Below, piece after piece: positions 16,888 to 62,751 of a stretch of 64,000 bases of DNA (position 1 is its first letter; each line of letters starts with the position of its first letter). Position numbers and translations under genes: made by a program. The DNA comes from Archangium sp. (GTDB taxonomy: Bacteria > Myxococcota > Myxococcia > Myxococcales > Myxococcaceae). The notes beneath the pieces are model-generated. The model searched no databases, was not told the DNA's origin, and saw only the letters and a list, made by a program, of their open reading frames with translations. Location of the stretch: contig JAUXRX010000004.1 of assembly GCA_030681645.1 (NCBI GenBank), positions 124,001 to 188,000 of the forward strand, given 5' to 3'.

Positions 16888-18081
16888 GTGCGTCGCCTGC
16901 TCATCCTCAGCGTGTCGCTCGCTCTCGGCTGCGGGCCCCAGCGGCGCGACCCGTGCAGCCCCAGCGCGACGAGCGCAGTCGCCCCGCCCGTCATCGTCGC
17001 GCTGGTCGGCGAGGAGATCGACGTCGAGCTGCTGCTGGCGCCCGCGGTGTTCTGCCCCCAGGGGAACCCCGTCGCGACCGAGGTGGTCACCGAGGTGCTC
17101 GACGGGGCGAACCGGCCGGTGCCGCACGTGCACAGCCCGCCCACCTCGAGCAACACGGCCGGCTATTCCACGCACATCACCTTCACGCCCGCCACCGCGG
17201 GGGTGCACTACCTCACCGCCCGCTACGAGCCGGCGCTCGGCATCACGCAGCGGCAGATTCAGGTCGCGCTCGAGCGCAGCGGCGAGGTGCCGTGGCTGCG
17301 CACCACGCTGGGCCCGGTGTGCGACGAGGTGCTGCCCCTGCGCGACGCCGTGCTCTGCCGGCGGGGCACGCAGGTCAGCTTCGTGCGCGACGGCGGCGCG
17401 GCCTCGACCGAGACCATCAGCGCCATGGCGACGGCCGGCGACACCGCCTGGCTGTGGACCAGCGCGCGCCTGTCCCGACTGGTCGACGTCGACGGCGGCT
17501 TCGAGCGCACCGACGTGGCGCTGGCCGTCACCGGCGGGGCCGTCGGGGTGACGCCGGACACGTGGGTGCAGGGCACGAACGCCGAGTTCGTCGAGCTGCG
17601 CGCGCTCGATGGCGGGCTGACGGAGCAGCGCTGGACCATCGACGCCGGCTTCGCGCCCATCACCGGTCCGGGGCTGAGCCTGGCGGGCGAGGTGGTGGGC
17701 TGGGTGGCGCCGACGAAGGTGTGCGCAGGCGCACCCAGCGTGCCCGTGCGCTGTATCGACAGCCCCCTGCAGCCGCTCGCCGCCGAGGGCAGCGCCATCT
17801 GGTTGCGCGGCGCCGAGAGCGGGGTGGTCGCGCTCGCGCGCGTGTCACGCGATGGCGGAGAGCCGCTGGTGCTCTTCGTGCCCGCGCAGAGCTCGTCGCT
17901 CATGGACGCGCGGCAGAGCCGGCCGGTGTTCTCGTGGAACGGGCGCGTGGTCGCCGTGCGCGCCGACGACCTCTCGCTCGAGGCCTGGCGCGCGCCGGCC
18001 CCGGCCTCACGGCAGACGGTGACCGGGTCCTTCGTGGTGTTTCAGCTGACCTCGGGCGAGACGGTCATCTTCAAGCGGTGA
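16888..18081 (+). CDS. Secreted lipoprotein of unknown function, 397 aa
   Basis: A GTG start gives MRRLLILSVSLALGC, a short lipoprotein signal with Cys 15. The mature part is rich in beta-type sequence and has about seven Cys. An early segment (~40-125: EVVTEVLDGANRPVPHVHS ... HYLTARYEPALGITQRQIQV) resembles an Ig-like domain. The later part contains short recurring WLW/WTxxR-type strands and VDVDGGFERT, like a degenerate beta-propeller. Such poorly conserved propeller lipoproteins are common in Myxococcota. No enzyme motif is visible. It ends just before a family A repeat that separates it from the convergent transporter gene. Confidence 0.75.
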   Translation: MRRLLILSVSLALGCGPQRRDPCSPSATSAVAPPVIVALVGEEIDVELLLAPAVFCPQGNPVATEVVTEVLDGANRPVPHVHSPPTSSNTAGYSTHITFTPATAGVHYLTARYEPALGITQRQIQVALERSGEVPWLRTTLGPVCDEVLPLRDAVLCRRGTQVSFVRDGGAASTETISAMATAGDTAWLWTSARLSRLVDVDGGFERTDVALAVTGGAVGVTPDTWVQGTNAEFVELRALDGGLTEQRWTIDAGFAPITGPGLSLAGEVVGWVAPTKVCAGAPSVPVRCIDSPLQPLAAEGSAIWLRGAESGVVALARVSRDGGEPLVLFVPAQSSSLMDARQSRPVFSWNGRVVAVRADDLSLEAWRAPAPASRQTVTGSFVVFQLTSGETVIFKR

Positions 18082-18095
18082 CCTGCAGCACCTGC

Positions 18096-18145
18096 GCCCC
18101 TCACCCGGCCTGCGGCCGACCTCTCCCCGCTTTCGCAGGGAGAGG
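18096..18145. repeat. Family A palindromic repeat, long form
   Basis: The order is GCCCCTCACCC, then GGCC-tgc-GGCC, then ACCTCTCCCCGC-ttt-GCAGGGAGAGGT. The main stem is CCTCTCCC/GGGAGAGG. It fills the gap between two convergent genes (stops at 18081 and 18148) and could work as a two-way terminator. It is nearly identical to the copy at 60989-61038. Confidence 0.85.
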
Positions 18146-18147
18146 TT

Positions 18148-18849
18148 TCAGTCGGGCTCGGCGTCGGGCGGCAACGGCTCGAGGCCCAGCACCCGCTGCA
18201 CCAGCGCGTGGCCCGCGTAGATCAACGGCGTGAGCAGCACCGCGATGAGCACCTTGCCCACCCACGAGGTGATGATCAGGTTGGTGAGCCTGGGCAGGTC
18301 GAGGTTGCCGCTCCACACCAGGCTCTGAATCACGATGGTGTCGATCAGCTGCGAGATGACGGTGCTCCCCGTCGCGCGCACCCAGAGCAGCTTCCCCTTC
18401 GTGAATGACTTGAGGCGGTGGAACACGGCGATGTCGATCAACTGCGCCACCACGTACGCCGTCATCGAGGCGACCAGGATGCGGCGGCCGCTCGCGAACA
18501 CCGCGTCGAAGGTGCTGGGCGTCAGGCCGGTCCACCCCGGCTGCAGGGTGTCGGGGTGCCAGGGCATGGCCACCGCCACCGTCACCACCACCAGCGTGAA
18601 CACCGCCATGCCGAAGCCGACCCACGTGACCGTGCGCGCGGCCCGCTTGCCGTAGAACTCGTTGAGCAGGTCGGTGAGCAGGAAGGTGATGGGGAAGGGA
18701 ATGAACCCCACCGAGAGGTAGTGCAGCTGCCCGAAAAGGGGCACGCCCATCAGCTTGCCGCCGATGAGGTCGCCCACCACCAGGGAGGTGACGAAGACCG
18801 CGGTCAGCGAGAGGAAGAGCTTCGCGCGCGTGTCGAGCGTGGCGACCAT
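18148..18849 (-). CDS. yhhQ: Queuosine precursor transporter (YhhQ/VUT family), 233 aa
   Basis: Hydrophobic throughout, with about six membrane helices: residues ~10-30 (LSLTAVFVTSLVVGDLIGGK), ~45-62, ~75-95, ~120-142, ~160-185 and ~190-215. The PF02592 hallmarks are present: FPITFLLTDLLNEFYGKR and a later ISQLIDTIVI stretch. The family imports queuosine precursors (preQ0, preQ1) for tRNA modification. No queuosine synthesis gene is nearby, so salvage cannot be confirmed from context. The gene stands alone between the family A repeat and the small gene at 18896. Confidence 0.88.
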   Translation of the reverse strand: MVATLDTRAKLFLSLTAVFVTSLVVGDLIGGKLMGVPLFGQLHYLSVGFIPFPITFLLTDLLNEFYGKRAARTVTWVGFGMAVFTLVVVTVAVAMPWHPDTLQPGWTGLTPSTFDAVFASGRRILVASMTAYVVAQLIDIAVFHRLKSFTKGKLLWVRATGSTVISQLIDTIVIQSLVWSGNLDLPRLTNLIITSWVGKVLIAVLLTPLIYAGHALVQRVLGLEPLPPDAEPD

Positions 18850-51086: not shown

Positions 51087-53066
51087 ATGCTGCGACTCCT
51101 CCTTCCCGCGCTGCTGCTCTTCGCCTGCCCCGCCGTGAAGCCCGCGGTGAATGACGCGGGCACCGGCGGTGGTGGAGGCGGCGCGGTCACCGGCGGTGGC
51201 GCCGGGGGCGGGAGCGCCGGAGGTGGCGGGGGCTCCGTCGATGCGGGCACCGATGCGGGCGTGCAGTCCGTCTGCGGAGACGCGCGGGTGACGGGCCTCG
51301 AGAGCTGCGACGACGGCTTCCTGGTGCCGGGTGACGGCTGCTCCATCGGGTGCGCGGTGGAGCTGGGCTGGTATTGCCAACTCCCTCCGCCGGGCCAGCC
51401 GAGCGTCTGTGTACCGAACTGTGGAGACGGCCGGCTGGTGGCGAACGAGCCCTGCGACGACGGCAACGTGCGCAACAACGACGGCTGCTCCAGCACCTGC
51501 GTGGTCGAAGCGGGCTTCACCTGCCTGGGTACGCCGAGCCGCTGCACGGTGAGCTGCGGAGACGGCATCGTCGGAGGGCTCGAGACCTGCGACGACGGCA
51601 ACCAGATCGGCGCGGACGGCTGCTCGGTGACCTGCGCGCAGGAGCCGGGCTTCACCTGCCTGGGCATGCCCAACGTGTGCCGGCCCACCTGTGGCGACGG
51701 CCTGCTGGTGACGGGAGAGGTCTGCGACGACGGCTTCATGGACGCGTGCGGCGCGTGCAACTCGAACTGCACCGCGGTGGGCGCGGGCAGCTCGTGCGGT
51801 GACGGCACGCGGTGCCCGCAGACCGAGCAGTGCGACGACAACAACCAGACGTCGAACGACGGCTGCAGCAGCACCTGCACCCTGGAGGCGGATGCGGGCA
51901 CGACGCCGGACTCGGGTGTGGATGCGGGCACGCCGGTGGATGCGGGCTCGACTCCGGACGCGGGGGGAGCGACCGACGCGGGCATGCCGGTGAATGACGG
52001 CGGCGTGGGCGCCTTCACGTACCAGCGCATCACCAACGTCACCTTCGTCGACGACCTCACGCGGGTGAGCTGGCACCCGAGCGGGCGGTTTGCGCTGGTG
52101 CTGGGCACCGGGGGCAAGGTGATCAGATACGACGCCACCACGCGCGCGCTGAGCCTGGTGCAGAACCTGGGCACGACGGTGGCCGATCTCGACGTGACGG
52201 CCGACGGGACTTCGTTCGTCATCGCGGGCGTGCAGTCGGCGGTCTCGCACCTGTGGCGCATCGACGTCGGCGCAGGTGACGTGCTCGCGGCCGCGGTGGA
52301 TCTGGGCACGCTGCAGGGAACGGTGAGCGCGGTCTCGGTGGAGCCGGGCACCTCGCGCTTCGCGGCCGTCTCGCGCGGCAACCCGAGCATCAACTCCCTC
52401 ACCCTCTGGTCGCCTGCCGCGGGGTTGAGCGCGCCGAAGGGCTACAACGCCAGCGGCGGGGCGATGACGTTGATGTGGGGCTCACCGGCGCTCTATGGCG
52501 GCAGCGCGAACGTGCTCACCGGCGACGGCGTCAACGGCGCCGACAGCAAGACGTGGGTCGAGGCGTCGAACGTGTTCGTGGGCAACGCGTGGTCGGGCGG
52601 CTTCGGCAATCCGGGTGGCGGGGCGTGGCAGCCGGGTGGGGGCTGGGGCGCGTTCTGCGGGTGGAGCTCGAACAAGCTCTACGTGTTCGACGGGGCGTGG
52701 ACGTTGATCACCCTGCCCGGCAACACCGGCATCAGCCCGCAGTCGCTCGCGTTCCGGGCCGACGGCCGGCGGGGGCTGGTGGTGGGGCGGCCGGTGGGGA
52801 ACCCGCTCAACGGCACGGTCATCGAGTACCGCGCGAGCGGTGCGGGCACGCTCACCGCGGCAGAGCTGACGGACGTGTCGATTCCCGGGTTCAACCTCAC
52901 GCCCTGGTTCGGCACGAGCAACGAGTACCTGATGGACGTGGCGTGGCGGCCGGGCACCTGTGACGAGGGGTTGATCGTCGGCATGGACAACGGCACGTCG
53001 CTCTCGCCGACGTTCGGCCTGGCGATTCGCTTCTACGACTCGTCGCAGCCTGCCTGCACCCCGTAG
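51087..53066 (+). CDS. Lipoprotein with five DUF4215 Cys-rich repeats and a C-terminal propeller-like region, 659 aa
   Basis: The signal MLRLLLPALLLFAC places the lipidated Cys at 14; a Gly-rich tether with DAG motifs follows. Residues ~62-290 hold five DUF4215 (myxobacterial cysteine-rich) repeats, each with CGDGxxxxxExCDDGNxxxxDGC, a Cys pair, and usually GFTC. A second Asp-Ala-Gly linker (~290-330: GVDAGTPVDAGSTPDAGG) leads to a beta-rich part (~335-659) that has propeller-like strands (RVSWHPSGRFALVLGTGGKV; DVTADGTSFVIAGVQ; FRADGRRGLVVGRPVG). The role is probably surface binding. It is one of the clearest taxonomic markers in the window. Confidence 0.88.
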   Translation: MLRLLLPALLLFACPAVKPAVNDAGTGGGGGGAVTGGGAGGGSAGGGGGSVDAGTDAGVQSVCGDARVTGLESCDDGFLVPGDGCSIGCAVELGWYCQLPPPGQPSVCVPNCGDGRLVANEPCDDGNVRNNDGCSSTCVVEAGFTCLGTPSRCTVSCGDGIVGGLETCDDGNQIGADGCSVTCAQEPGFTCLGMPNVCRPTCGDGLLVTGEVCDDGFMDACGACNSNCTAVGAGSSCGDGTRCPQTEQCDDNNQTSNDGCSSTCTLEADAGTTPDSGVDAGTPVDAGSTPDAGGATDAGMPVNDGGVGAFTYQRITNVTFVDDLTRVSWHPSGRFALVLGTGGKVIRYDATTRALSLVQNLGTTVADLDVTADGTSFVIAGVQSAVSHLWRIDVGAGDVLAAAVDLGTLQGTVSAVSVEPGTSRFAAVSRGNPSINSLTLWSPAAGLSAPKGYNASGGAMTLMWGSPALYGGSANVLTGDGVNGADSKTWVEASNVFVGNAWSGGFGNPGGGAWQPGGGWGAFCGWSSNKLYVFDGAWTLITLPGNTGISPQSLAFRADGRRGLVVGRPVGNPLNGTVIEYRASGAGTLTAAELTDVSIPGFNLTPWFGTSNEYLMDVAWRPGTCDEGLIVGMDNGTSLSPTFGLAIRFYDSSQPACTP

Positions 53067-53119
53067 CTCGGGGGCAAACAAACCTTGCGCGGCGGTGCGG
53101 CGGGGCCCACGGTGTCTTC

Positions 53120-53503
53120 GTGGCCATCGAGCTATCAGAGCTGAAGACGAAGTCAGGGCACCCCGTCCTCCGCGCGAACTTCGTGAAGGAAGTGACGGTC
53201 GCCGACGCCGAGGGGTACCACGCGAAGCTCGTCCCCGGCGCGAAGTACGACGGCTGGGGTCACCTGGTGGTGGGCAACATCACCGGCGTGTCGAGCGAGG
53301 TGAGGAAGGTGCTGTCGAGCCAGAAGACCGACGCGCGCAACCCGGTGCCGGTGGCGCTGATCCTCACCTCGGCGCTCGCGCGCATGGCGGCGGCGCTGAC
53401 GATGCGGCTGACGGACAACAGCAACTCCGACTCGTTCAAGAGCGAGGAAGAGGGGCTCGCCTGGCTCGATGGGCGAATGGCCGAGTTCCTCCGCAAGCGC
53501 TGA
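53120..53503 (+). CDS. Small SpoIIAA/STAS-like protein, 127 aa
   Basis: A GTG start at 53120 gives MAIELSELKTKSGHPVLRAN; no strong ribosome-binding site is seen. The order of strands and helices (VLRANFVKEVTVADAEGYHA; GHLVVGNITGVSSEV; VALILTSALARMAAALTMRL; FKSEEEGLAWLDGRMAEF) resembles SpoIIAA-like/STAS domains, with the closing EEExLAWL helix. These are regulatory or lipid-binding domains. The family call is tentative. The gene ends eight bases before a family A repeat. Confidence 0.65.
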   Translation: MAIELSELKTKSGHPVLRANFVKEVTVADAEGYHAKLVPGAKYDGWGHLVVGNITGVSSEVRKVLSSQKTDARNPVPVALILTSALARMAAALTMRLTDNSNSDSFKSEEEGLAWLDGRMAEFLRKR

Positions 53504-53510
53504 CTCGATA

Positions 53511-53553
53511 TCTCCCTCTCCCTGCGCAGCGGGGAGAGGGCGGGGTGAGGGGC
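53511..53553. repeat. Family A palindromic repeat, short form, intergenic
   Basis: TCTCCCTCTCCCTGCGCAGC, then GGGGAGAGGGCGGGGTGAGG, then GGC. The stem is CCCTCTCCC/GGGGAGAGGG. All 43 bases are identical to the copy inside the DUF4105 gene at 57691-57733. It fills the gap between convergent genes, so it may end transcription from both sides. Confidence 0.9.
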
Positions 53554-53569
53554 GAACGCAGGCACCAGG

Positions 53570-54889
53570 TCAGGGGGAACAGGCCCGCACCCGACTGACG
53601 CGCAGCATGCGCCCCGCCCCCTCAGCCCAGCCCACATCACCCGACGGCCACCGGGTGAAGTCATCGCGATCCGCGACGCCGACGGGCGCGGTGATCGGCC
53701 CCTCGACGACCACGCCCGCGGGGCTGAGCACGGCGAGCTTCGAGGCTGAGCCCTCGCGCCACGACGCCAGCAACCCGCCTGCTCCGTAACGCGCGAGGTG
53801 CGGCGCAGACTCATCGCCAGCGGCCGAGGTGAGCCACACCACCGGGCTCTTCCGCTGCTGCGCGTCGATGGCGATGAAGCCGACGTCGCGCGAGGCGCGG
53901 CCTTCCTTCGTGGAGAAGGTGAACCCGAAGCCCCCTCCTCCGAGTGAGGCGAGGCCACCGAGTTCACCGGGTGACGAGCCCGCACAGTTGCCGCCCGGCT
54001 CGTCCTGGAGCACGTCGGAGTCGTTGAGCATCACCGCCTTCGCCCGGTAACAATCCGACAGGCACACCGGCGCGATGGAGGCGCCGTCCCACGCGAGGCG
54101 CACGTCGAGCGAGTGGCTGCAACCCCACGCCCAGCCCGCGGGGCCACCGGTCGGCTGACCCGTCGTGGCGTCGAGGCTGATCAGCAGGTCACCCTGGTGC
54201 TTGCCCATCGCGCCCCAGTGCTTCGTGTGCCCGAAGTACGCCACGTAGACGGTGCCGGTGAAGAGCAGCCTTCCCTCGTGGCCCCAGCTGTCGACCCAGC
54301 GCGCGCCTTCGACCTCCGAGGGCTGATCATTCACGACGGCGGTCTCGAACAACGCCGTGCCGTCGGCGCGCAGCTTCACCAGGAACATGCCGGTGCCCCG
54401 CACCACCAGCAGCGCCGCCGTGCCGTCGTCATGCGCGACGAAGCCGCGCACGCTCTCTCCTGCGATGATCACGTCGGGTCCCGCGCGCTGCAGGGACGCG
54501 GAGAGCGGCGTCACGTGCACCTGGCCTCCGCCGCTCCACGCCGCGCGGGCGGTGCCGTCGGCGAGCCCCACGAGGTGCACGGGCCGGTTGTTCGACCACC
54601 CGTAACTCGACCCCACGTCGACCGAGGCCGGCCCGACGTCGATGGTGGCGCTGATCAGCCGCGTGTCGAGCGCGCCACACGCCGGAGGGGGCCCCGCATC
54701 GAAGCCCGCGTCGATGACCGGGGGCGTCCCCGCGTCGACCACGCCAGAGTCCTGCGCGACGGACACGCCCGCGTCGACCGCAGCGCCGCCGTCAACCGTG
54801 ACCGCCGCGGGCGCAACCTCTGGAGGGCCCACCATGTCCGCGGTGCCGACGCAGGAACACACGAGCAGCAGGCTCCAGCGGAGGGACAT
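53570..54889 (-). CDS. Secreted lipoprotein with DAG-rich tether and beta-propeller-like body, 439 aa
   Basis: The signal is MSLRWSLLLVCSC, with lipidation at Cys 11 or 13. An Ala/Val/Asp-Ala-Gly tether (~20-65: VTVDGGAAVDAGVSVAQDSG) leads to the body. The body (~70-439) is beta-rich with propeller-like strands (HLVGLADGTARAAWSGGG; GFVAHDDGTAALLVVRGTG; LAWDGASIAPVCLSDC; GLASLGGGGFGFTFSTKEG). No enzyme motif is recognised. It is convergent with the STAS-like gene across the family A repeat, and divergent from the VOC gene at 55054. Confidence 0.8.
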   Translation of the reverse strand: MSLRWSLLLVCSCVGTADMVGPPEVAPAAVTVDGGAAVDAGVSVAQDSGVVDAGTPPVIDAGFDAGPPPACGALDTRLISATIDVGPASVDVGSSYGWSNNRPVHLVGLADGTARAAWSGGGQVHVTPLSASLQRAGPDVIIAGESVRGFVAHDDGTAALLVVRGTGMFLVKLRADGTALFETAVVNDQPSEVEGARWVDSWGHEGRLLFTGTVYVAYFGHTKHWGAMGKHQGDLLISLDATTGQPTGGPAGWAWGCSHSLDVRLAWDGASIAPVCLSDCYRAKAVMLNDSDVLQDEPGGNCAGSSPGELGGLASLGGGGFGFTFSTKEGRASRDVGFIAIDAQQRKSPVVWLTSAAGDESAPHLARYGAGGLLASWREGSASKLAVLSPAGVVVEGPITAPVGVADRDDFTRWPSGDVGWAEGAGRMLRVSRVRACSP

Positions 54890-55015
54890 GCAGGGGTGTC
54901 GTCCCCTCGCGCGCGGGGTTGTCCACTTCTTCCCTTCCGAGCGGCGGGGTGTGCACCGCAGTGATCACCGCAGGCCCGGACGTTTCCCCGATGAGTTTGA
55001 GCGTCGACGACGGTC

Positions 55016-55037
55016 GAGAGGTTGCTGACCACCTCTC
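55016..55037. promoter_or_regulatory. Inverted repeat in the leader of the VOC gene
   Basis: GAGAGG and CCTCTC flank a ten-base centre, ending 16 bases before the ATG at 55054 and just before the GGAG site. It could be an operator or a leader hairpin that affects ribosome access. Confidence 0.35.
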
Positions 55038-55053
55038 ACGCCGGAGCACCACC

Positions 55054-55419
55054 ATGGGTAACGCCTTCGTCCACATCGAGCTGAACACCGACGACCTCAA
55101 GGGCTCGAAGAAGTTCTACACGAAGCTCTTCAAGTGGAAGCTCGGCGAGATGCCCGGGCCGTACACCACCATCAACACCGGCCCGAAGGCGACGGGCGGC
55201 GGCATGCAGGTGAAGCCCATGCCCGAGGCCCCCACCGCGTGGCTGCCCTACGTCGAGGTGGCCGACGTGAAGAAGACCATCGCGCAGGCGAAGAAGCTCG
55301 GCGCGTCCATCGCGCTCGAGTACCAGCCCATTCCCGGCATGGGGGCGATCGGCATCTTCATCGACCCTGCGGGCGCAGCGCTGGGCGTCTGGGCCCCGGC
55401 GAAGAAGACCAGGCGCTGA
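55054..55419 (+). CDS. VOC-superfamily (glyoxalase-like) protein, 121 aa
   Basis: The ATG at 55054 follows GGAG. The protein has the paired beta-alpha-beta-beta-beta pattern of the vicinal-oxygen-chelate fold: FVHIELNTDDLKGSKKFYTK, LFKWKLGEMPGPY, then LPYVEVADVKKTIAQAKKLG and IGIFIDPAGAALGVWAP. The possible metal ligands are H7 and residues in the second half. Such single-unit proteins act as lyases, isomerases, dioxygenases or resistance proteins; the substrate is not evident. No signal peptide. It is followed after 25 bases by a secreted Cys-rich protein that is probably unrelated in function. Confidence 0.85.
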   Translation: MGNAFVHIELNTDDLKGSKKFYTKLFKWKLGEMPGPYTTINTGPKATGGGMQVKPMPEAPTAWLPYVEVADVKKTIAQAKKLGASIALEYQPIPGMGAIGIFIDPAGAALGVWAPAKKTRR

Positions 55420-55444
55420 GGCCCGGCGTGTATGCTCGGGGCGG

Positions 55445-56299
55445 ATGACGCGCCGCTGGAGCCCTCTCATCGCGCTGCTCGTGCTCGGCGTCGCGTCCCC
55501 CGCCCCCGCGTGGGACGTGTTCTTCCGCGTCTCATCCGAGACCACCGTGCGGGTGACCTCGGAGACGACCAGCGAGGCGAGCAGCGACGCGAGCAGCGCC
55601 AGCACCCGCGCCGGCAACAGGGAACGCAGGGAACGCCGGGCCCAGGCAAAGAATCGGGGCGCCGGCATGGAGTGTACCGCCGATGACGAATGCGCCGGCT
55701 GGTGCCGCGAGGGTGTGTGCGCCGACCCTGCGCCGCCCGCGCAGCTGCCTCCGACCGCGCCGCCGGCGGCGTTCTATTGCGTGGACGATTCGTCGTGCGC
55801 GCCCGGCTTCGCCTGCCGCGATCGCCAATGCGTGCAGGCTGGTCCGCAGCCCGTGCCCGTGCCGGGCTGCTCGACGGACGCCCACTGTTACCAGGGCCAG
55901 CGCTGCATCGACGGGCAGTGCATCAACCCACCACCACAGCCGGGCTGCTCGACGGACGCGCACTGTTACCAGGGCCAGAGCTGCATCAACGGGCAGTGCA
56001 TCAGCCCGCCGCCGCCGCCCCCGCCCGGGGCCTCGCTCTGGCGCCGCGGCTCCGAGTTCTTCCTGCGCGACCGCACCGTGCAGCTGCGCCAGGACCTCGC
56101 GCTCGGAGAAGGCCCGGTCATCGCCACCCTCGCCGAGCTGCACGGCGTGTCGACCCACGTGCTCGGCCGCGCGATGCGCGCGCGTCGGGCTGAGCTGGTC
56201 GCGATCATGGGCGACGGCAAGGACCCGGCCTGGACGCGCCGGTTCCTGGTCGAAGTCGAGGCGATGTGCGAGCAGCAGGCGAAGCTCTCGGCCCGGTGA
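55445..56299 (+). CDS. Secreted Cys-rich repeat protein with a DUF3015-like C-terminus, 284 aa
   Basis: A signal peptide (MTRRWSPLIALLVLGVASPA, cleaved near APA-W) is followed by a Ser/Thr-rich segment and a basic region. Residues ~75-195 hold four Cys-rich repeats, the last two nearly identical (CSTDAHCYQGQRCIDGQC; CSTDAHCYQGQSCINGQC), joined by poly-Pro linkers. The C-terminal ~205-280 (FFLRDRTVQLRQDLALGEGP, VIATLAELHGVSTHV) resembles DUF3015 proteins, though weakly. The near-identical repeats suggest recent duplication. It ends in a GTGA overlap with the DUF4105 gene, so the two may work in the envelope together. Confidence 0.75.
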   Translation: MTRRWSPLIALLVLGVASPAPAWDVFFRVSSETTVRVTSETTSEASSDASSASTRAGNRERRERRAQAKNRGAGMECTADDECAGWCREGVCADPAPPAQLPPTAPPAAFYCVDDSSCAPGFACRDRQCVQAGPQPVPVPGCSTDAHCYQGQRCIDGQCINPPPQPGCSTDAHCYQGQSCINGQCISPPPPPPPGASLWRRGSEFFLRDRTVQLRQDLALGEGPVIATLAELHGVSTHVLGRAMRARRAELVAIMGDGKDPAWTRRFLVEVEAMCEQQAKLSAR

Positions 56300-58854
56300 G
56301 CTGGGCGGATGATGCGGGGCCCGCTCCCCGACCCGCTCCCCCGCGGGGAGAGGGAGCATCGGTCGTCCTCGGCATCCTGTTGATCTCCTCCGTGGCCTCT
56401 GCGTCCTCTCTGGCCGAGCGGGGCGTGCAGGTGCGGCCTTCACCTGCAGTCACCGACGAGCTGCTGGAAGATCTCGCCGCCGGCCTCGACGCACTTCCCC
56501 CCGCCGCGCGGCTCACCCCGCTCGAGGTCGAGCTCCACGACGAAGCGACGCCGCTCGGCCTGGGCGACGCCACGCACCCTGCCCTCACCCATGGCAGCGC
56601 GCGCCTGCACCTGTACGCGTACCGCGAGGACGACGACACGAGGGCGGCGGCGCGGCTCGGTTCGCTCTCGGCTGATCAGCGCCGCAGGCTCTGGCGACGC
56701 CGCGCGGTGGTGCACGCGCTCATTCGCCGCTGGGACGAGCGCCTGCGCTGGAGCAGCCGCGCCGGCTGGACGTCCCTCGCCGGCTGGGACGGCGACGTGC
56801 CGCTGCTGGTCTACCCCTGGGCCTTCAGCCGCCGCGCCGGGATGAAGTCGGCCGCGCTCGACCTCGCCACGTTCGCCGAAGAGCTGCTCGTGCCCGCCGA
56901 GTCGATGGTGCAGGACGCCGTGCCGCTCGACGATCGCCTCCGCTGCCGTGAGCCCTCGAAGGCCCGCTTCCTCGACGAGCGGCTCGCGGCGATCGATCCC
57001 TCATGGAAGCCCGCGCGCGCCGAGTGTCCCCGCTTCGAAGGGTGGGCTGATCTCGAGCACCTGCCGAAGTTCGAGGTCATCTACGCCAGCCCCTCCTCGT
57101 CCTCTGCGCAGGCGGTCTTCGGTCACCTGCTCCTGCGGCTGGTGCGCGAGGACGACGAGGGCCCTGCGTCGGTGCAGGTGATGCAACTCGCCGCGCTCAT
57201 CTCGCCGCTCGAGCCCGCCACCTCGTACATCCTGCGCGGGGTGGGCGGCGGCTTTCGCGGGGTGTTCTCGATCGCGCGGTTGTCTGACGTGCAGCAGGAA
57301 GCGCTGGGGCTCGAGCAGCGCATGCTCCACCGCTTCGCGCTCGAGCTGACGGTCGAGCAGCGGCGCCGGCTGCTCGAGCGCATGTGGGAACTCGAGCGCG
57401 TCGGGTACATCGACTACCGGTTCTTCCAGGCGAACTGCGCCACCATGTTGCGCTTCCTGCTCACGCCGGCGCTGGGTGAGCAGGCGGCTGGACCGCCGCT
57501 GACGCCGTGGGAGACGCCCACGCAGGTGCTCGACGGCCTCGCGGGGGTGCTCGGCGCGGTGGAGACCGACGAGGCGAGCGGCACGGTGGCGAGCAAGGCG
57601 AGAACGGTGGTCCGGAGCCTCGTCCCAGGAGAGCTGCGCGACGAGCTCGAAGGTGGGCCGGCACGGCGGAGAGCTGCCTACCGTTGCCTGTCTCCCTCTC
57701 CCTGCGCAGCGGGGAGAGGGCGGGGTGAGGGGCCGACCTCCCTCACCACCGAAGCGCGAGCGCGTGTCCTCCTCGCGTCGCTGCGCCTCGAGCGGTTCGC
57801 GCTCGATCAGGCGACGGCCGCGCGCATCAAGGCCGAGCGGGCCACCGTGCTCCCCGGCTGGACTGGTCCCACCACCGACGAGCTCGTCGCCGCCCGCCAG
57901 CGCCGCTACGAACATGAAACGAGCGCGCGACGCCGCGCCCAGGTGGAGCTCGCAGCGATCCTCGCGCTCGACGAGCTGCTCCGCGCCGCCCCGCGCAGGC
58001 CGTTCGACGCCGGTGAACGCGCGGCGCTCGAGACAGAGCAGGAAGCGCGCGAGACGTTCGAAGCGGTGGCGGACGCCGTGGCGAGCCTCCCCGAAGACGC
58101 GCTCGCCCGGGCGCGCGCCGAAGAGCTCGAGGCCTCGCGCGTGTTCCAGGCCGAGACGAACCGGCGCGCGGTGCCCGAGGGCGGCCACGGTCACGGCTCG
58201 CTCGGGGTCGGAGTCCTCCTCACCGGCACGCCCGTGCTCCGCCTCCGCGCGGCGGCGCTCGTCGAGCAGTTGGGTGATCAACGCCAGCGCGGCTTCGGTT
58301 CCCGCAGCGCGTGGCGGGCGCTGGACGCCTCGGTCGAGCTGGAGGCCGCGAGCCAGCCCGTGCACCGCGCCGGCTTCACCGTGGCCCACGCGCGCGGAGT
58401 GAGCGACACGGGGTGGGGCTGGGGCGCGGGCCTCGACTACGCGTTCGAGCGGCGCGCGCACGAGGTCGCCGCGGCGGGCGAGCGGCTCTGGGCGGTCGCG
58501 GGGGATCAACGCTTCACGAACTTCCTGATGCTGAACCTGGGCGTTCGCCTCGGCGTGCGGGTGGATCAACTGGTGAACGCCGTCGCGTATCCACGCGCGG
58601 GGCTGGCCTTCCGGCTCCAGCTGCCCGGCTCCTTCGGGAACGCGGTGCGCTTCGAGGGCGCGTACCTGCCGCGGCTCCTCGCGGGAAACGGTGCGTTCGG
58701 CTTCGAGCACGGGGCGGTGGCGGCGGTGCAGGTGCACCTGCGGCTCGGGGTGGCCGGTGGCGTGGCGCTCACTGCCCGCGCGGACGTACAGGCGGAGTGG
58801 CGGCCCACCAGCGGGCTCTCCGGCGTCGCGGCGCTCGGCGTCGAGCTCGACTGA
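56296..58854 (+). CDS. DUF4105 (Lnb N-terminal periplasmic) protein carrying two family A repeats, 852 aa
   Basis: I take the GTG at 56296, which overlaps the previous stop (GTGA); no start with a ribosome-binding site lies nearer the hydrophobic signal-like segment (~22-38: VVLGILLISSVASASS). The DUF4105 domain (~240-440) has VIYASPSSSSAQAVFGHLLL (H277) and the catalytic-type Cys 381 in FFQANCATMLRFLL, in an NlpC/P60-like arrangement. The C-terminal ~610-852 is beta-barrel-like (GSLGVGVLLTGTPVLRLRAA; LNLGVRLGVRVDQLVNAVAY). Residues ~8-21 and ~466-480 derive from family A repeats. The first copy sits ahead of the signal segment and gives an odd N-terminus; the second lies in a linker. Confidence 0.8.
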   Translation: MSWADDAGPAPRPAPPRGEGASVVLGILLISSVASASSLAERGVQVRPSPAVTDELLEDLAAGLDALPPAARLTPLEVELHDEATPLGLGDATHPALTHGSARLHLYAYREDDDTRAAARLGSLSADQRRRLWRRRAVVHALIRRWDERLRWSSRAGWTSLAGWDGDVPLLVYPWAFSRRAGMKSAALDLATFAEELLVPAESMVQDAVPLDDRLRCREPSKARFLDERLAAIDPSWKPARAECPRFEGWADLEHLPKFEVIYASPSSSSAQAVFGHLLLRLVREDDEGPASVQVMQLAALISPLEPATSYILRGVGGGFRGVFSIARLSDVQQEALGLEQRMLHRFALELTVEQRRRLLERMWELERVGYIDYRFFQANCATMLRFLLTPALGEQAAGPPLTPWETPTQVLDGLAGVLGAVETDEASGTVASKARTVVRSLVPGELRDELEGGPARRRAAYRCLSPSPCAAGRGRGEGPTSLTTEARARVLLASLRLERFALDQATAARIKAERATVLPGWTGPTTDELVAARQRRYEHETSARRRAQVELAAILALDELLRAAPRRPFDAGERAALETEQEARETFEAVADAVASLPEDALARARAEELEASRVFQAETNRRAVPEGGHGHGSLGVGVLLTGTPVLRLRAAALVEQLGDQRQRGFGSRSAWRALDASVELEAASQPVHRAGFTVAHARGVSDTGWGWGAGLDYAFERRAHEVAAAGERLWAVAGDQRFTNFLMLNLGVRLGVRVDQLVNAVAYPRAGLAFRLQLPGSFGNAVRFEGAYLPRLLAGNGAFGFEHGAVAAVQVHLRLGVAGGVALTARADVQAEWRPTSGLSGVAALGVELD
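56318..56357. repeat. Family A repeat copy at the 5' end of the DUF4105 gene
   Basis: GGCCCGCTCCCCGACCCGCT, then CCCCCGCGGGGAGAGGGAGC, a diverged short form with the stem CTCCCCCGCGGGGAG. It is read as PAPRPAPPRGEGAS between the GTG start and the signal-like helix. Either the gene start was rebuilt by the insertion or the true start lies elsewhere. Confidence 0.7.
57691..57733. repeat. Family A repeat copy inside the DUF4105 gene, in frame
   Basis: The 43 bases are identical to the intergenic copy at 53511-53553, while flanking bases differ. It is read as LSPSPCAAGRGRGEG without a stop codon. It sits between the DUF4105 domain and the C-terminal barrel-like part. Confidence 0.9.
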
Positions 58855-58862
58855 ACCCCGCA

Positions 58863-58973
58863 ACCTCTCCCTGCGACGCGGGGAGAGGTCGGCCGCAGGC
58901 CCGGTGAGGGGCTCGGCTGCGTGCAATTCTGCCCCTCACCCCGACCCTCTCCCCGCTTCGCAGGGAGAGGGAG
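58863..58973. repeat. Two family A copies in opposite orientation
   Basis: A long-form copy (58863-58912: ACCTCTCCCTGCGACGCGGG then GAGAGGTCGGCCGCAGGCCC) and an inverted short-form copy (58931-58973: GCCCCTCACCCCGACCCTCT then CCCCGCTTCGCAGGGAGAGG) fill most of the gap between the DUF4105 gene and the ferritin-like gene. Together they can form one very long imperfect hairpin. Confidence 0.85.
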
Positions 58974-58989
58974 CTGGTAGGTTCACGCG

Positions 58990-59634
58990 GTGGCCCGGCT
59001 GCTCCTCGCTCGCTTGATGCGACCCCTGCGCTGGCGAAGCGCCCGCTCGACGTCCCGCATGCTGCTGGCCTTCGCGCGCGCCGAGCGCTCGAGCTTCTAC
59101 GACATGATGGAAGCCGCAAACGCCACCGCCGAGCTCCCGCGCAAGGCGCAATACGTCGCGCACGCGGTCGACGAAGCGCGGCACGCGAAGATGTTCACGC
59201 TGCGCGCGCTCGAGCTCGACCCGTCGCGGGCCGCCGACCCTGCCCTCTTTCACTCCGACTTCGAGCACCTCTTCACCCGCCTCGGCGAAGCGCGCTTCAT
59301 GGCCTTCGTGCACCTGGGCGAGCGCCGCGGCCGGGCGCAGATGCAGCTCTTCCGCGACGAGCTCCAGCAGCTCGAGGGCACGCCCCGCGCCGATCCGAAG
59401 ACCCGCGCGCTGCTCGACGCGGTGATGCGCGACGAGACCCAGCATGAGCGCTACTCGCTGGCGCTGACGAAGACGCTGGGCGGCTCACTCGCCGGCGCCC
59501 GCGCGTGGGAGCTGAAGCGCGGCTGGCTGCGGGCCGGCGCGGCGGTGAGCGGCTTCGTCTTCACCGTGCTCATGTCGGCGCTCTACCTGCTCCTCTTTCC
59601 CCTCGCGCTGCTCGAGAAGTCCCGCCGCGCGTGA
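58990..59634 (+). CDS. Membrane-anchored ferritin-like protein, 214 aa
   Basis: A GTG at 58990 starts shortly after the repeat pair. The helical body has two E-x-x-H motifs, E62/H65 in DEARHAKMF and E149/H152 in DETQHERYS, plus further Glu residues in FARAERSSFYDMM and HLGERRGRAQ, as expected for a di-iron four-helix bundle of the ferritin-like superfamily. A single membrane helix near the C-terminus (~180-205: AVSGFVFTVLMSALYLLLFP) anchors it, as in membrane ferritins or AOX/Coq7-like oxidases. The reaction, iron storage or di-iron oxidation, is open. The stop overlaps the phosphatase start (TGATG). Confidence 0.75.
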   Translation: MARLLLARLMRPLRWRSARSTSRMLLAFARAERSSFYDMMEAANATAELPRKAQYVAHAVDEARHAKMFTLRALELDPSRAADPALFHSDFEHLFTRLGEARFMAFVHLGERRGRAQMQLFRDELQQLEGTPRADPKTRALLDAVMRDETQHERYSLALTKTLGGSLAGARAWELKRGWLRAGAAVSGFVFTVLMSALYLLLFPLALLEKSRRA

Positions 59635-60302
59635 TGGCCCGCGGGTTCTTCCTCGGTGCGGGGGTGCTGTACCTGGTGCTCGGTCTGCGCCTGGGTCCGT
59701 CTGGCGCGGCGATGAGCTGGCTCGGACTCTCGCTCTTCCTCATCGGCGTCGCCTACGTCCGGGGCAGCGCCCGGGGCATGGGCAAACGGCGCGACGGCTC
59801 CTTTCATCTGCTCGCGCTGCTGGTGCACGCGCCGTTTCTGCTGGCGGCCTGGCTGGCGTGGCAGCTCCGGCGCCGCCGCGGTGAGCCGGCGTGGAACGAG
59901 GTCGCCCCCGGCATCTTCGTGGGCCGCATGGCGACCTCGAGCGAGCTGCCTCCCGGCGCCCCGTGGGTGATCGACCTCACCTGCGAGCTCGTGCCTCCTC
60001 GGGCAGTGCGCGGAGACCGCTATCGGTGCCTGCCGACCCTCGACGGCACCGCGCCAGAGCATGAGCCCTTCTGGGCGCTGGTGGCCGAGCTGGCGGCGCT
60101 CGACGCCCCCCTGTTCATCCACTGCGCCGCGGGACACGGGCGATCCGCGACCCTGGCTGCGGCGGTCATCGTCGAGCGCGGACACGCGGCTGACGTCGAC
60201 GCAGCAGAGACCCTGATGAAGCGTCAGCGGCCGCACGTGGCGCTCGGGAGGGCGCAGCGGGCGTTGGTGATGAGTGGGCAGAGGAGTAAACCGCCCTCAT
60301 GA
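59634..60302 (+). CDS. Membrane-bound dual-specificity-type phosphatase, 222 aa
   Basis: Two or three N-terminal membrane helices (~5-20, ~27-43 and ~58-78: LLALLVHAPFLLAAWLAWQL) precede a cytoplasmic domain. The cysteine phosphatase loop is HCAAGHGRSA (C164, R170), the H-C-x5-R-S/T signature. An upstream TxDGTAPEH-like loop could give the general acid. It may dephosphorylate a protein, lipid or phosphoinositide head group. It overlaps the ferritin-like gene by one base and the rhodanese-thioredoxin gene by four, so the three form one translation unit. Confidence 0.85.
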   Translation: MARGFFLGAGVLYLVLGLRLGPSGAAMSWLGLSLFLIGVAYVRGSARGMGKRRDGSFHLLALLVHAPFLLAAWLAWQLRRRRGEPAWNEVAPGIFVGRMATSSELPPGAPWVIDLTCELVPPRAVRGDRYRCLPTLDGTAPEHEPFWALVAELAALDAPLFIHCAAGHGRSATLAAAVIVERGHAADVDAAETLMKRQRPHVALGRAQRALVMSGQRSKPPS

Positions 60303-60976
60303 CTCGCTCGCTCATCGTCTTCGTCTCGCTGCTCGCTGGTCTCTCGCTCGCGGGGAACCTCCCGCCCGCCCAATTCAAGAGCGAGCTCGAGGCGCAGCAC
60401 GGCCTGGTGCTCGACGTGCGGACGCCGGGTGAAGTGGCCCGGGGCAAGCTCGCCGGCGCGAGCGTGATCGACTTCAGCGCGCCGAAGTTCGAGCAGAAGG
60501 TGTCGCTCATCGCCCGGGACAAGCCGGTGTTCGTCTACTGCGCGAGCGGCAACCGCAGCGGCCAGGCGGCCGCGTTGATGGCGCAGCTCGGGTTCACGAA
60601 GGTCTACAACCTCTCCGGAGGGATCGGCGCGTGGAAGGCAAGCGGATTCCCGGTGGAGAGCAGCGGCGCGGCGCCCGCGGCGTCCGGGCAAGGGCTCACG
60701 CCCGAGGCGTTCGACGCGTTGATCAAGAAGGAGAAGCGCCTGCTCGTCGACTTCCAGACGCCCTGGTGCACCCCCTGCCAGAAGATGGTGCCCGTGGTCG
60801 ACGCGCTCAAGAGCATCAAGGTGCTCAAGGTGGATCTCGATCAGAGCGAGGCCCTGGGCACGCGCGAGCAGGTGCAGGGCGTGCCGGTGTTCGTGCTCTA
60901 CGTCGACGGCAAGGAGCGCGGGCGCCTCTTCGGTGAGCAGACGCGCGAGGCGCTCGAGGCGCTGGCGAAGAAGTAG
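60299..60976 (+). CDS. Exported rhodanese-thioredoxin fusion, 225 aa
   Basis: A signal peptide (MTRSLIVFVSLLAGLSLAGN) precedes a rhodanese domain (~22-115) with the active loop CASGNRSG (C81), as in periplasmic PspE-like sulfurtransferases. Residues ~130-225 form a thioredoxin fold with WCTPC (C157, C160) and the cis-Pro segment GVPVFVLYV. The fusion could transfer sulfane sulfur from the rhodanese Cys to the dithiol, or reduce the rhodanese. It is the last gene of the trio and is followed by a family A repeat. Confidence 0.88.
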   Translation: MTRSLIVFVSLLAGLSLAGNLPPAQFKSELEAQHGLVLDVRTPGEVARGKLAGASVIDFSAPKFEQKVSLIARDKPVFVYCASGNRSGQAAALMAQLGFTKVYNLSGGIGAWKASGFPVESSGAAPAASGQGLTPEAFDALIKKEKRLLVDFQTPWCTPCQKMVPVVDALKSIKVLKVDLDQSEALGTREQVQGVPVFVLYVDGKERGRLFGEQTREALEALAKK

Positions 60977-60988
60977 CTCGCGAAGTGA

Positions 60989-61038
60989 GCCCCTCACCCG
61001 GCCTTCGGCCGACCTCTCCCCGCTTCGCAGGGAGAGGT
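60989..61038. repeat. Family A palindromic repeat, long form
   Basis: GCCCCTCACCCGGCCTTCGG, then CCGACCTCTCCCCGCTTCGC, then AGGGAGAGGT, almost identical to 18096-18145. It separates the rhodanese-thioredoxin gene from the carbamoyltransferase gene and ends 18 bases before its start. Confidence 0.85.
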
Positions 61039-61056
61039 GTCTATGCTGCGCGCGCG

Positions 61057-62751
61057 ATGGCGGCGGTGCTCGGAATCAGCGCGAACTACCACGACGCGGC
61101 CGCGGCGCTCGTCATCGACGGCCAGCTCGTCGCCGCCATGCAGGAAGAGCGCTTCACCCGCATCAAGAACGACGCCTCGCTCCCCCTCGCCGCCGCGCGC
61201 GCCTGCCTGGCCTACGCGAAGCTCGACGCTGCCGCCCTCGACGAGGTGGTCTTCTACGAGAACCCGTACGCCAAGCTCGAGCGGGTCCTCCTCTCCACGC
61301 TGCGCACCTTTCCCCGCGCGCTGCGCCAGTTCCCCCGCGCGCTGGCCTCGCAGCTGGGCAGCAAGCTCTGGGTGCTCGACGCGCTCTCTTCCCAGCTCGG
61401 CGTCTCACGCGACCGCGTCACGCATCGCGAGCACCACGCGTCACACGCCGCGAGCGCGTTCTTCGCCAGCCCCTTTCAGCGCGCCGCGGTGATGACGGTC
61501 GACGCCGTCGGGGAAGAGACGAGCACCGGCCTCTGGCTGGGCGACGGCCACACCCTCACCTGCAAGGCGCGCATCGACTTCCCGCATTCCCTGGGGCTGC
61601 TCTACTCCGCGCTCACCGCGTACCTGGGCTTCGAGGTGAACGAGGGCGAGTACAAGGTGATGGGGCTGGCTGCGTTCGGCAAGCCGCGCTTCCGCGCCGA
61701 GTTCGAGAAGCTGATCAGCCTCACCGCCGACGGCTTCGAGCTGGGCCTCGCCTACTTCGCCTCGCACACCAACACCGAGGTGGGCTTCTCCCCGAAGCTC
61801 GAGGCGCTGCTCGGGCCGCGGCGGCTCCCGGGCACGCCGTGGCTCCTCGATGGGAATGCCGACGACGCGCGCGCGGCCGACGTGGCGGCGACGCTGCAGG
61901 CCGTGCTCGAAGAGGCGCTGCTGCGGCTCGCGGCGCGGGCGAAGTCACTGACCGGCGCCGACGCGCTCTGCCTCGCCGGCGGCGTCGCGCTCAACGCGGT
62001 GGCGAACGGCCGGCTCTTCCGGGAAGCGGGTTTCAGCGAGCTCTTCGTGCAGCCGGCAGCGGGTGACGCAGGCGGCGCGCTCGGCGCGGCGTTGCTGGCT
62101 GCGTCCGAGCGGGGGGAGCGGCGCGGCACCTTCACGCACGCGGCGTGGGGCACCCCGGTGAGCGGCGACGTGGCCCACGGCCTGGCCACCGCACTCGGCT
62201 TGACGGCGACCCGGGTCGAGTCGCCCGTGGACGCCGCCGCGGAGGTGTTGCTGAAGGGTGAAGTGCTCGCCTTCGTGCAGGGCCGCTTCGAGTGGGGCCC
62301 GCGCGCGCTCGGACAGCGGAGCATCCTCTCGCTCCCCGCCCCGCTCGCGGTGAAGGAGCGGCTCAACAAGGTGATCAAACGCCGCGAGCCGTTCCGTCCG
62401 TTCGCGCCGATGGTGCTGGAGGAAGCGGCGAGCACGTACTTCGGCCCCTTCGCGCCGCAGCTCGCGCCCTTCATGACCACGGTGGCCGAGGTGCGGCCCA
62501 CCGCGCGCGCGAGCCTGGAAGCGGTGACGCACGTCGACGGCACGGCCCGGCTGCAGACGGTGAAGCCCGACGCGCTCGCCGGCACCCTGCTCGCCCGCGT
62601 CGCAAAGGAGACCGGCGTGCCCGTGCTGCTCAACACCTCGCTCAACGGCCAGGGCGAGCCCATCGTCGCCACCGAGGCCGATGCGCTGGCCTTCTTCCTC
62701 GCCCATCCCATCGACGCCTTACTCATCGATAACGTCTTGATTTGTCGTTAA
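61057..62751 (+). CDS. NodU/TobZ-type carbamoyltransferase, 564 aa
   Basis: The ATG at 61057 begins MAAVLGISANYHDAAAALV, the actin-like YrdC-free N-terminal fold of carbamoyltransferases. The metal-binding motif is H126-H127-x2-H130 in REHHASHAASAFF. Other hallmarks are VDAVGEETSTGLW, GYLGFEVNEGEYKVMGLAAF-like sequence, LCLAGGVALNAVANGRL, and the C-terminal domain FEWGPRALGQRSIL, REPFRPFAPMVL and NTSLNGQGEPIV. The family uses carbamoyl phosphate and ATP to carbamoylate sugars of antibiotics, Nod factors or surface glycans. No glycosyltransferase or biosynthesis cluster is next to it here, so the acceptor is unknown. A TAA ends it at the AT-rich promoter region. Confidence 0.92.
   Translation: MAAVLGISANYHDAAAALVIDGQLVAAMQEERFTRIKNDASLPLAAARACLAYAKLDAAALDEVVFYENPYAKLERVLLSTLRTFPRALRQFPRALASQLGSKLWVLDALSSQLGVSRDRVTHREHHASHAASAFFASPFQRAAVMTVDAVGEETSTGLWLGDGHTLTCKARIDFPHSLGLLYSALTAYLGFEVNEGEYKVMGLAAFGKPRFRAEFEKLISLTADGFELGLAYFASHTNTEVGFSPKLEALLGPRRLPGTPWLLDGNADDARAADVAATLQAVLEEALLRLAARAKSLTGADALCLAGGVALNAVANGRLFREAGFSELFVQPAAGDAGGALGAALLAASERGERRGTFTHAAWGTPVSGDVAHGLATALGLTATRVESPVDAAAEVLLKGEVLAFVQGRFEWGPRALGQRSILSLPAPLAVKERLNKVIKRREPFRPFAPMVLEEAASTYFGPFAPQLAPFMTTVAEVRPTARASLEAVTHVDGTARLQTVKPDALAGTLLARVAKETGVPVLLNTSLNGQGEPIVATEADALAFFLAHPIDALLIDNVLICR

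Follow-up and report, generated by a model that had tools for sequence, protein, structure and literature searches.

The PIT/TMECO repeats, which follow the pattern CCCTCNCCCN3-6GGGNGAGGGN3GGGNGAGGG, number 3610 in 262 proteobacterial genomes (Holder et al. 2015, PMC4666352, where Hoyne and Maher are cited for earlier PIT elements). As a single strand, TMECO forms a triplex in vitro, a structure without in vivo support; its 23 copies in E. coli K-12 are always intergenic, and there are no mobility genes near TMECO (PMC4666352). In Enterobacter sp. 638, the repeat CCCTCTCCCXX(X)GGGAGAGGG occurs 100 times and its loops measure 2-3 nt (PMC2869309). The GTAG and CGTC REPs are short hairpins that form inverted dimers and are biased toward convergent and unidirectional gaps; they provide stop codons to neighboring genes and can lie in frame in conserved enzymes (Di Nocera 2013, PMC3733652). 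The same study describes REPs in Xanthomonas recB whose positions nearly coincide in two species, identifies RPE-4 and RPE-6 as CGTC REPs and notes the mobilizer of the CGTC type as unknown. Finally, the enterobacterial RU-1, RU-2 and RU-3 are MITE-like units of 103-168 bp found inside genes (Delihas 2007, PMC2759123). In-gene palindromic repeats are already known, then, as RPEs, GTAG/CGTC REPs and RU units. The present study concerns a 43-bp palindromic sequence lying in frame in a gene of Archangium sp., within a stretch of 64,000 nucleotides (the window; C44:124001-188000 of G000, a genome of 10.24 Mb in 66 contigs). Very probably, this sequence is one of hundreds of REP-like, non-autonomous hairpin repeats of the PIT/TMECO kind (pyrimidine-purine-purine, Y-R-R), inserted in a linker of an Lnb_N protein and tolerated there.

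Structure of the element and its relation to PIT/TMECO repeats

The in-gene sequence, TCTCCCTCTCCCTGCGCAGCGGGGAGAGGGCGGGGTGAGGGGC, is identical at 43/43 bases to an intergenic copy in the same window, and the flanks of the two are unlike (Table 1). This match, reported in the initial annotation, was confirmed base for base, and the related copies that it placed at 18096, 56318, 58863, 58931 and 60989 are real, the one at 56318 being degenerate. All copies around the Lnb_N gene other than the one inside it are intergenic. Hairpins were located at 18120, 58864, 58946 and 61013, with a degenerate one near 56324; the pattern GGGGAGAGGGCGGGGTGAGGGG matched twice in the window and never in 100 shuffles, and Rfam returned no match at E 0.1 over 52500-62000.

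Table 1. Copies of the repeat and the host gene (positions within the window)
Feature	Position	Strand	Remarks
Intergenic variant copy	18096..18146	-	genes 16888-18081 and 18148-18849 on either side
Identical intergenic copy	53511..53553	+	convergent gap, genes 53120-53503(+) / 53570-54889(-)
Degenerate copy	56318..56356	-	upstream of likely Lnb_N gene start
Lnb_N (PF13387, formerly DUF4105) periplasmic-domain protein, then beta-barrel-like C-terminal part	56392..58854	+	Pfam 1.1e-22, gene call
In-gene, in-frame 43-bp copy	57691..57733	+	Y tract CCCTCTCCC, loop, R tract GGGGAGAGGG, second R tract GGGGTGAGGGG; codes SPSPCAAGRGRGEG
Variant copy with extra small hairpin ahead of GTGAGGGGC end	58860..58914	+	first half of inverted pair just past Lnb_N gene stop
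Inverted second half of the same pair	58931..58973	-	pair makes one long hairpin
Intergenic variant copy	60987..61038	-	94% complementary to 58863-58914

Alignment of 89 tagged copies defined a discrete unit, some 41-43 bp long, with sharp edges, CTC immediately preceding CCTCTCCC on the left and GGC following GAGG on the right (in general, G(G/C)C after GAGG); outside these edges, information drops to near background. Each unit consists of a pyrimidine tract, a loop, a purine tract, a 2-3-nt spacer and a second purine tract. In the computed folding of the single-stranded DNA, the pyrimidine tract pairs with the first purine tract, and the pair at 58860-58975 collapses into one long hairpin (z -8.3). 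Five of the six reading frames of the 43-mer are open, the sixth being halted by the TGA in GGTGAGG.

The initial annotation took the core of this element to lack a described myxobacterial equivalent and called in-gene elements best known from Rickettsia. The core, however, has been described: it is the PIT/TMECO triplex-motif hairpin (PMC4666352; also PMC2869309). In-gene REPs, moreover, have been found in bacteria other than Rickettsia (PMC3733652). The Y9-loop-R9-loop-R9 order and the stems are the same as in PIT/TMECO; the folding computed here was that of the hairpin; the commonest copy shares GGGAGAGGGCCGGGGTGAGGG with the E. coli type B repeat; and both families combine patchy copy number among close relatives with inverted pairs and an absence of mobility genes nearby. 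The differences lie in loop 1 (usually about 9 nt here versus 3-6), in loop 2 (2 nt in the 43-mer versus 3) and in the occurrence here of some copies in frame in genes. Under the strict loop lengths (N3-6, N3) the 43-mer, with loops of 9 and 2, falls outside the pattern and is therefore a PIT/TMECO relative rather than a strict member; 15 other copies in 2.06 Mb do conform, as does CCTCTCCCCCGCGGGGGAGAGGGTCGGGGAGAGG, the common subtype of the related genome G003, and extending loop 1 to 12 nt brings the count in 2.06 Mb to 84. Myxobacteria are absent from the main text of PMC4666352, and our search of the open-access literature found no report that places the motif in myxobacteria or, in frame, inside genes.

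The remaining systems resemble the element in part. The Enterobacter sp. 638 repeats have the same stem and often lie 3' of genes, often in groups of 2-3 copies; in-gene copies are not reported in the part of that paper available (PMC2869309). With the GTAG/CGTC REPs the element shares hairpins, inverted dimers, an intergenic 3' bias, the supply of stop codons and in-frame copies in enzymes, but it lacks the GTAG/CGTC end tag and no REPtron was found. The likeness to RPEs considered here is one of behavior, namely palindromic repeats in frame in unrelated conserved proteins and absent from orthologues, with the difference that about 4% of copies lie deep in genes here. The RU units, too, are small and mobile and occur in annotated genes with their frames open, but they are longer than 43 bp.

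Copy number and placement in the genome

Genome-wide, the pattern CCTCTCCCN{3,14}GGGAGAGG detected 581 perfect hairpins and its backwards-read control none, bearing out the description of the element as dispersed and palindromic. The exact 43-mer is present at least six times, and a 20-mer from the right half of the element has 38 exact copies. Because of this multiplicity, the perfect match between the two copies in the window, originally taken as a sign of recent spread or gene conversion, by itself says nothing about exchange between them; no evidence of direct conversion between the two was obtained.

Placement was assessed in 2.06 Mb of sequence (20% of the genome, window included), in which genes were called with a home-made caller using a self-trained fifth-order coding model (coding density 91%). 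A relaxed Y-R-R pattern with stems CCCTCNCCC / GGGNGAGGG / GGGNGAGGG occurs 94 times in this sample, and not at all in the reversed control. The sample contains 137 hairpins, 119 of them intergenic, two on gene edges and 16 within called genes, where about 125 of the 137 would be expected by chance (P ~1e-109). The element favors the space downstream of genes: it occupies 26 of 101 convergent gaps and 46 of 425 unidirectional gaps, versus nine of 218 divergent ones. REPs have been reported to be placed in the same way (PMC3733652). Eleven close pairs were recorded; ten are spaced 78-96 bp, and nine of these ten were classed as inverted, their second purine tracts pointing inward.

Eleven of the 16 in-gene copies lie within 60 nt of the gene end, and the other five are deep, with coding signal on both sides. 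The hosts of the latter are the Lnb_N protein, EpmA, MenD, a BchE-type radical SAM protein and a spermidine-synthase-like protein; at least four of the five copies are oriented as the host gene. Extrapolating from the sampled sequence, some 25 deep in-gene copies might be expected in the whole genome. Elements also overlap the last codons at the 3' ends of genes (for example G000 C1:255712, C54:40485, C58:346771 and C58:381861), and several provide the stop codon, the C-terminal residues becoming PLPA..GRGPG* or similar.

In-gene copies and their orthologues

The open reading frame of the Lnb_N gene can extend upstream to 56266 (56266-58854), with the likely start at 56392; the gene upstream of it contains, at 55861-56016, two tandem units of 78 bp that are 90% alike and encode a Cys-rich repeat (CSTDAHCYQGQ.CI.GQCI). 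In the linker between the conserved RRAAYR and RARVLLASLR, the G000 protein has CLSPSPCAAGRGRGEGPTSLTTEA (24 residues) versus ALEVELSPGDEPW (13 residues) in G005. Orthologues from G005, G010 and other genomes do without the element residues, which confirms by alignment to homologues that these are an insertion. The element had been described as adding about 15 residues without breaking the frame: it does lie in frame, but 43 is not a multiple of three, and when set against the nearest orthologue that lacks the element, the protein has gained 11 residues net and had 13 of its own replaced. The G003 protein carries its own element, LSPSPPRGRGSGRG, in the same linker and lacks about 28 upstream residues.

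One could envision instead a native low-complexity Ser/Pro/Gly/Arg linker that came to look like the repeat by chance or convergence, since the linker varies among orthologues and the peptides are of low complexity. This explanation is barely credible given that the element matches an intergenic copy at 43/43 bases and has at least four further exact copies, that the coding score falls over it between flanks that both score as coding, and that sister species have distinct hairpin subtypes with intact stems. In the AlphaFold2 model of the protein (820 residues, 14-row alignment, mean pLDDT 83.6), element residues 434-447 form a coil that links helices 423-433 and 453-484, and the only positions in the whole model with pLDDT below 50, residues 439-441 and 443-447, fall within the element peptide. 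The element adds a short, probably floppy loop to each of its five hosts, and it is probably because such a loop is exposed and disordered that the Lnb_N protein tolerates its insertion.

The four other deep copies, found in 20% of the genome, make the earlier comparison with RPEs apt. In EpmA (TIGR00462 match), the interval concerned spans 30 codons in G005 and G002, 34 in G000, 35 in G004 and 39 in G003. The elements of G000, G003 and G004 are complete and share orientation and phase, and their loops differ. EpmA lacks the element residues in G005, G002 and G001, as well as in the E. coli-type structure 3g1z; the element-free sequence of G005, AAVERTVAPSLGLF, resembles those of outgroups and looks ancestral. 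MenD (TIGR00173) has elements at one place in G000, G003 and G005, and a degenerate one in G004, in the same linker, orientation and phase with loops that differ between sisters; the element is absent from G002 and other genera. The BchE-type protein has about 16 extra residues in G000 only (absent in 6/6 homologues), and the spermidine-synthase-like membrane protein about ten extra residues in G000 only (absent in G002-G005). Since homologues lack these residues, all five deep copies are, as judged from the alignments, insertions or insertion-replacements in linkers and not native residues. At the BchE-type and EpmA sites, where the relatives available are highly diverged, host bases were replaced and there is no evident target-site duplication of the MITE kind. 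Another element appears to lie in frame in a Lys/Ala-rich gene stretch of G002 (C26, L378:1480-1560); G000 is without it, but some hundreds of bases upstream it has sequence that resembles a degenerate element.

The conservation of stems at shared sites where loops differ, together with the orientation of the deep copies, might suggest that the element is retained in genes for a function, either at the RNA level, where a hairpin might pace translation or stabilize mRNA, or as a useful peptide. We regard this as decidedly unlikely: very few copies are in genes, the peptide is predicted to be disordered, orthologues do without the element, and the MenD element is degenerate in G004.

Descent and mobilization of the repeat

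Hairpin counts in the genomes of the genus are 581, 534, 451, 287, 36 and 1. In the wider family, two large genera (g23 and g26) have 0-4 copies and genus g8 has 323-661. A hairpin and tag scan of genome contigs gave, among the matches listed, Alpha-, Beta-, Gamma- and Deltaproteobacteria, Nitrospirae, Verrucomicrobia, Chloroflexi, Planctomycetes, Omnitrophota and others. Each genome has its own prevalent subtypes: short-loop forms dominate G003, TCGGGG and GCCCCTGCGGG loops G002, and TGCGNAGCG loops G000. With 36 hairpins, G005 stands apart from four other genus members (287-581) and yet has kept the MenD element; this lineage may have lost elements or had a much lower activity.

Comparison of synteny with sister genomes at selected loci revealed at least three intergenic sites common to G000 and G003 or G004, one of them with the same rare loop. 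Vertical inheritance is therefore real, and the sites shared by sister species show that several insertions are old. We lean, with some reserve, toward a refinement of the tolerated-insertion reading in which each site received one insertion in some ancestor within the genus, so that shared in-gene copies are old, and was then altered in place by point changes or by conversion from other copies. The common intergenic sites argue for it, as does the shared linker and orientation of the EpmA (G000, G003, G004), MenD and Lnb_N (G000, G003) elements, in the first two also the phase. Against it, the element-free EpmA of G005 would call for two insertions under a G003+G005 clade, the grouping that a four-protein species tree favors, though not significantly (AU 0.72, 0.37, 0.26), and the left element boundaries differ between species at the shared in-gene sites. 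Orthologous sites carry the common subtype of each genome: EpmA and Lnb_N of G003 have its common short-loop form, and both in G000 have long-loop forms of the common class there. A RAYT-independent process that repeatedly delivers or exchanges hairpins at the same protein linkers, by recurrent insertion or concerted evolution of coding repeats, would produce this distribution; such a process is, in our judgment, rather unlikely.

The REPIN-like inverted pairs, the intergenic bias and the hairpin shape would be expected if, as has been suggested for GTAG REPs, a REP-associated tyrosine transposase (RAYT) copied the hairpin in single-stranded form, and G000 does have one IS200-like/RAYT gene close to NCBIfam REP_Tyr_transpos (78 bits, cut-off 80). 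This gene lies at a contig edge (L009:1-900; G000 C48:1-900) and adjoins, on its downstream side, two AGCAGCCTGTCCCC(A/C)TTTCC repeats, which belong to a different family; in the sequence present there, no 43-bp element was found near it. No hairpin occurred near Y1_Tnp genes at any of 30 loci examined, and Y1_Tnp had no match in six genomes with 167-534 copies (G002, G003, G004, G008, G013 and G017), draft assemblies that may miss genes. Nor do the element ends carry the tags of mobilized REPs: GTAG/CTAC was present within 10 nt in 4/89 copies upstream and 2/89 downstream, and CGTC in 3/89 and 2/89. Mobilization by a RAYT thus seems unlikely, and these searches point away from a RAYT as the copying machinery of the genus.

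An autonomous parent element with left and right arms far apart was also sought; only a few orphan arms came to light, and the loops of 88-92 nt proved to contain a different dispersed repeat. This second repeat, of about 79 nt (GGAGCGAAGCCGGTCCAGCGGAACGCTGG...GGCGAAGCGACC), is exemplified at L189:6051-6135 (G000 C1:166051-166135) and has about 33 more matches in 2.06 Mb. Five of its six closest copies lie directly behind a CTCCCTCTCCCCC arm, nested in the loop of a hairpin of the 43-mer family; Rfam gave no match at E 1 around the nested copy.

We infer that the element spreads as a selfish single-strand hairpin, that most coding insertions are purged, and that those in disordered linkers probably persist as neutral or near-neutral passengers, tolerated because five of the six element frames are open. 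It counts against this view that the searches yielded no mobilizer and that no target-site duplication was evident among the diverged relatives compared, the insertions replacing some host bases. PIT/TMECO repeats are widespread in bacteria and, in E. coli K-12, were described as lying strictly between genes; a coding, genus-wide version of the family looks new. As orthologues of conserved enzymes exist side by side without the element, with it and with different loops, insertion, tolerance and turnover are directly testable. The finding also implies that repeat-derived peptides enter annotated proteins, where alignments may take them for conserved residues.
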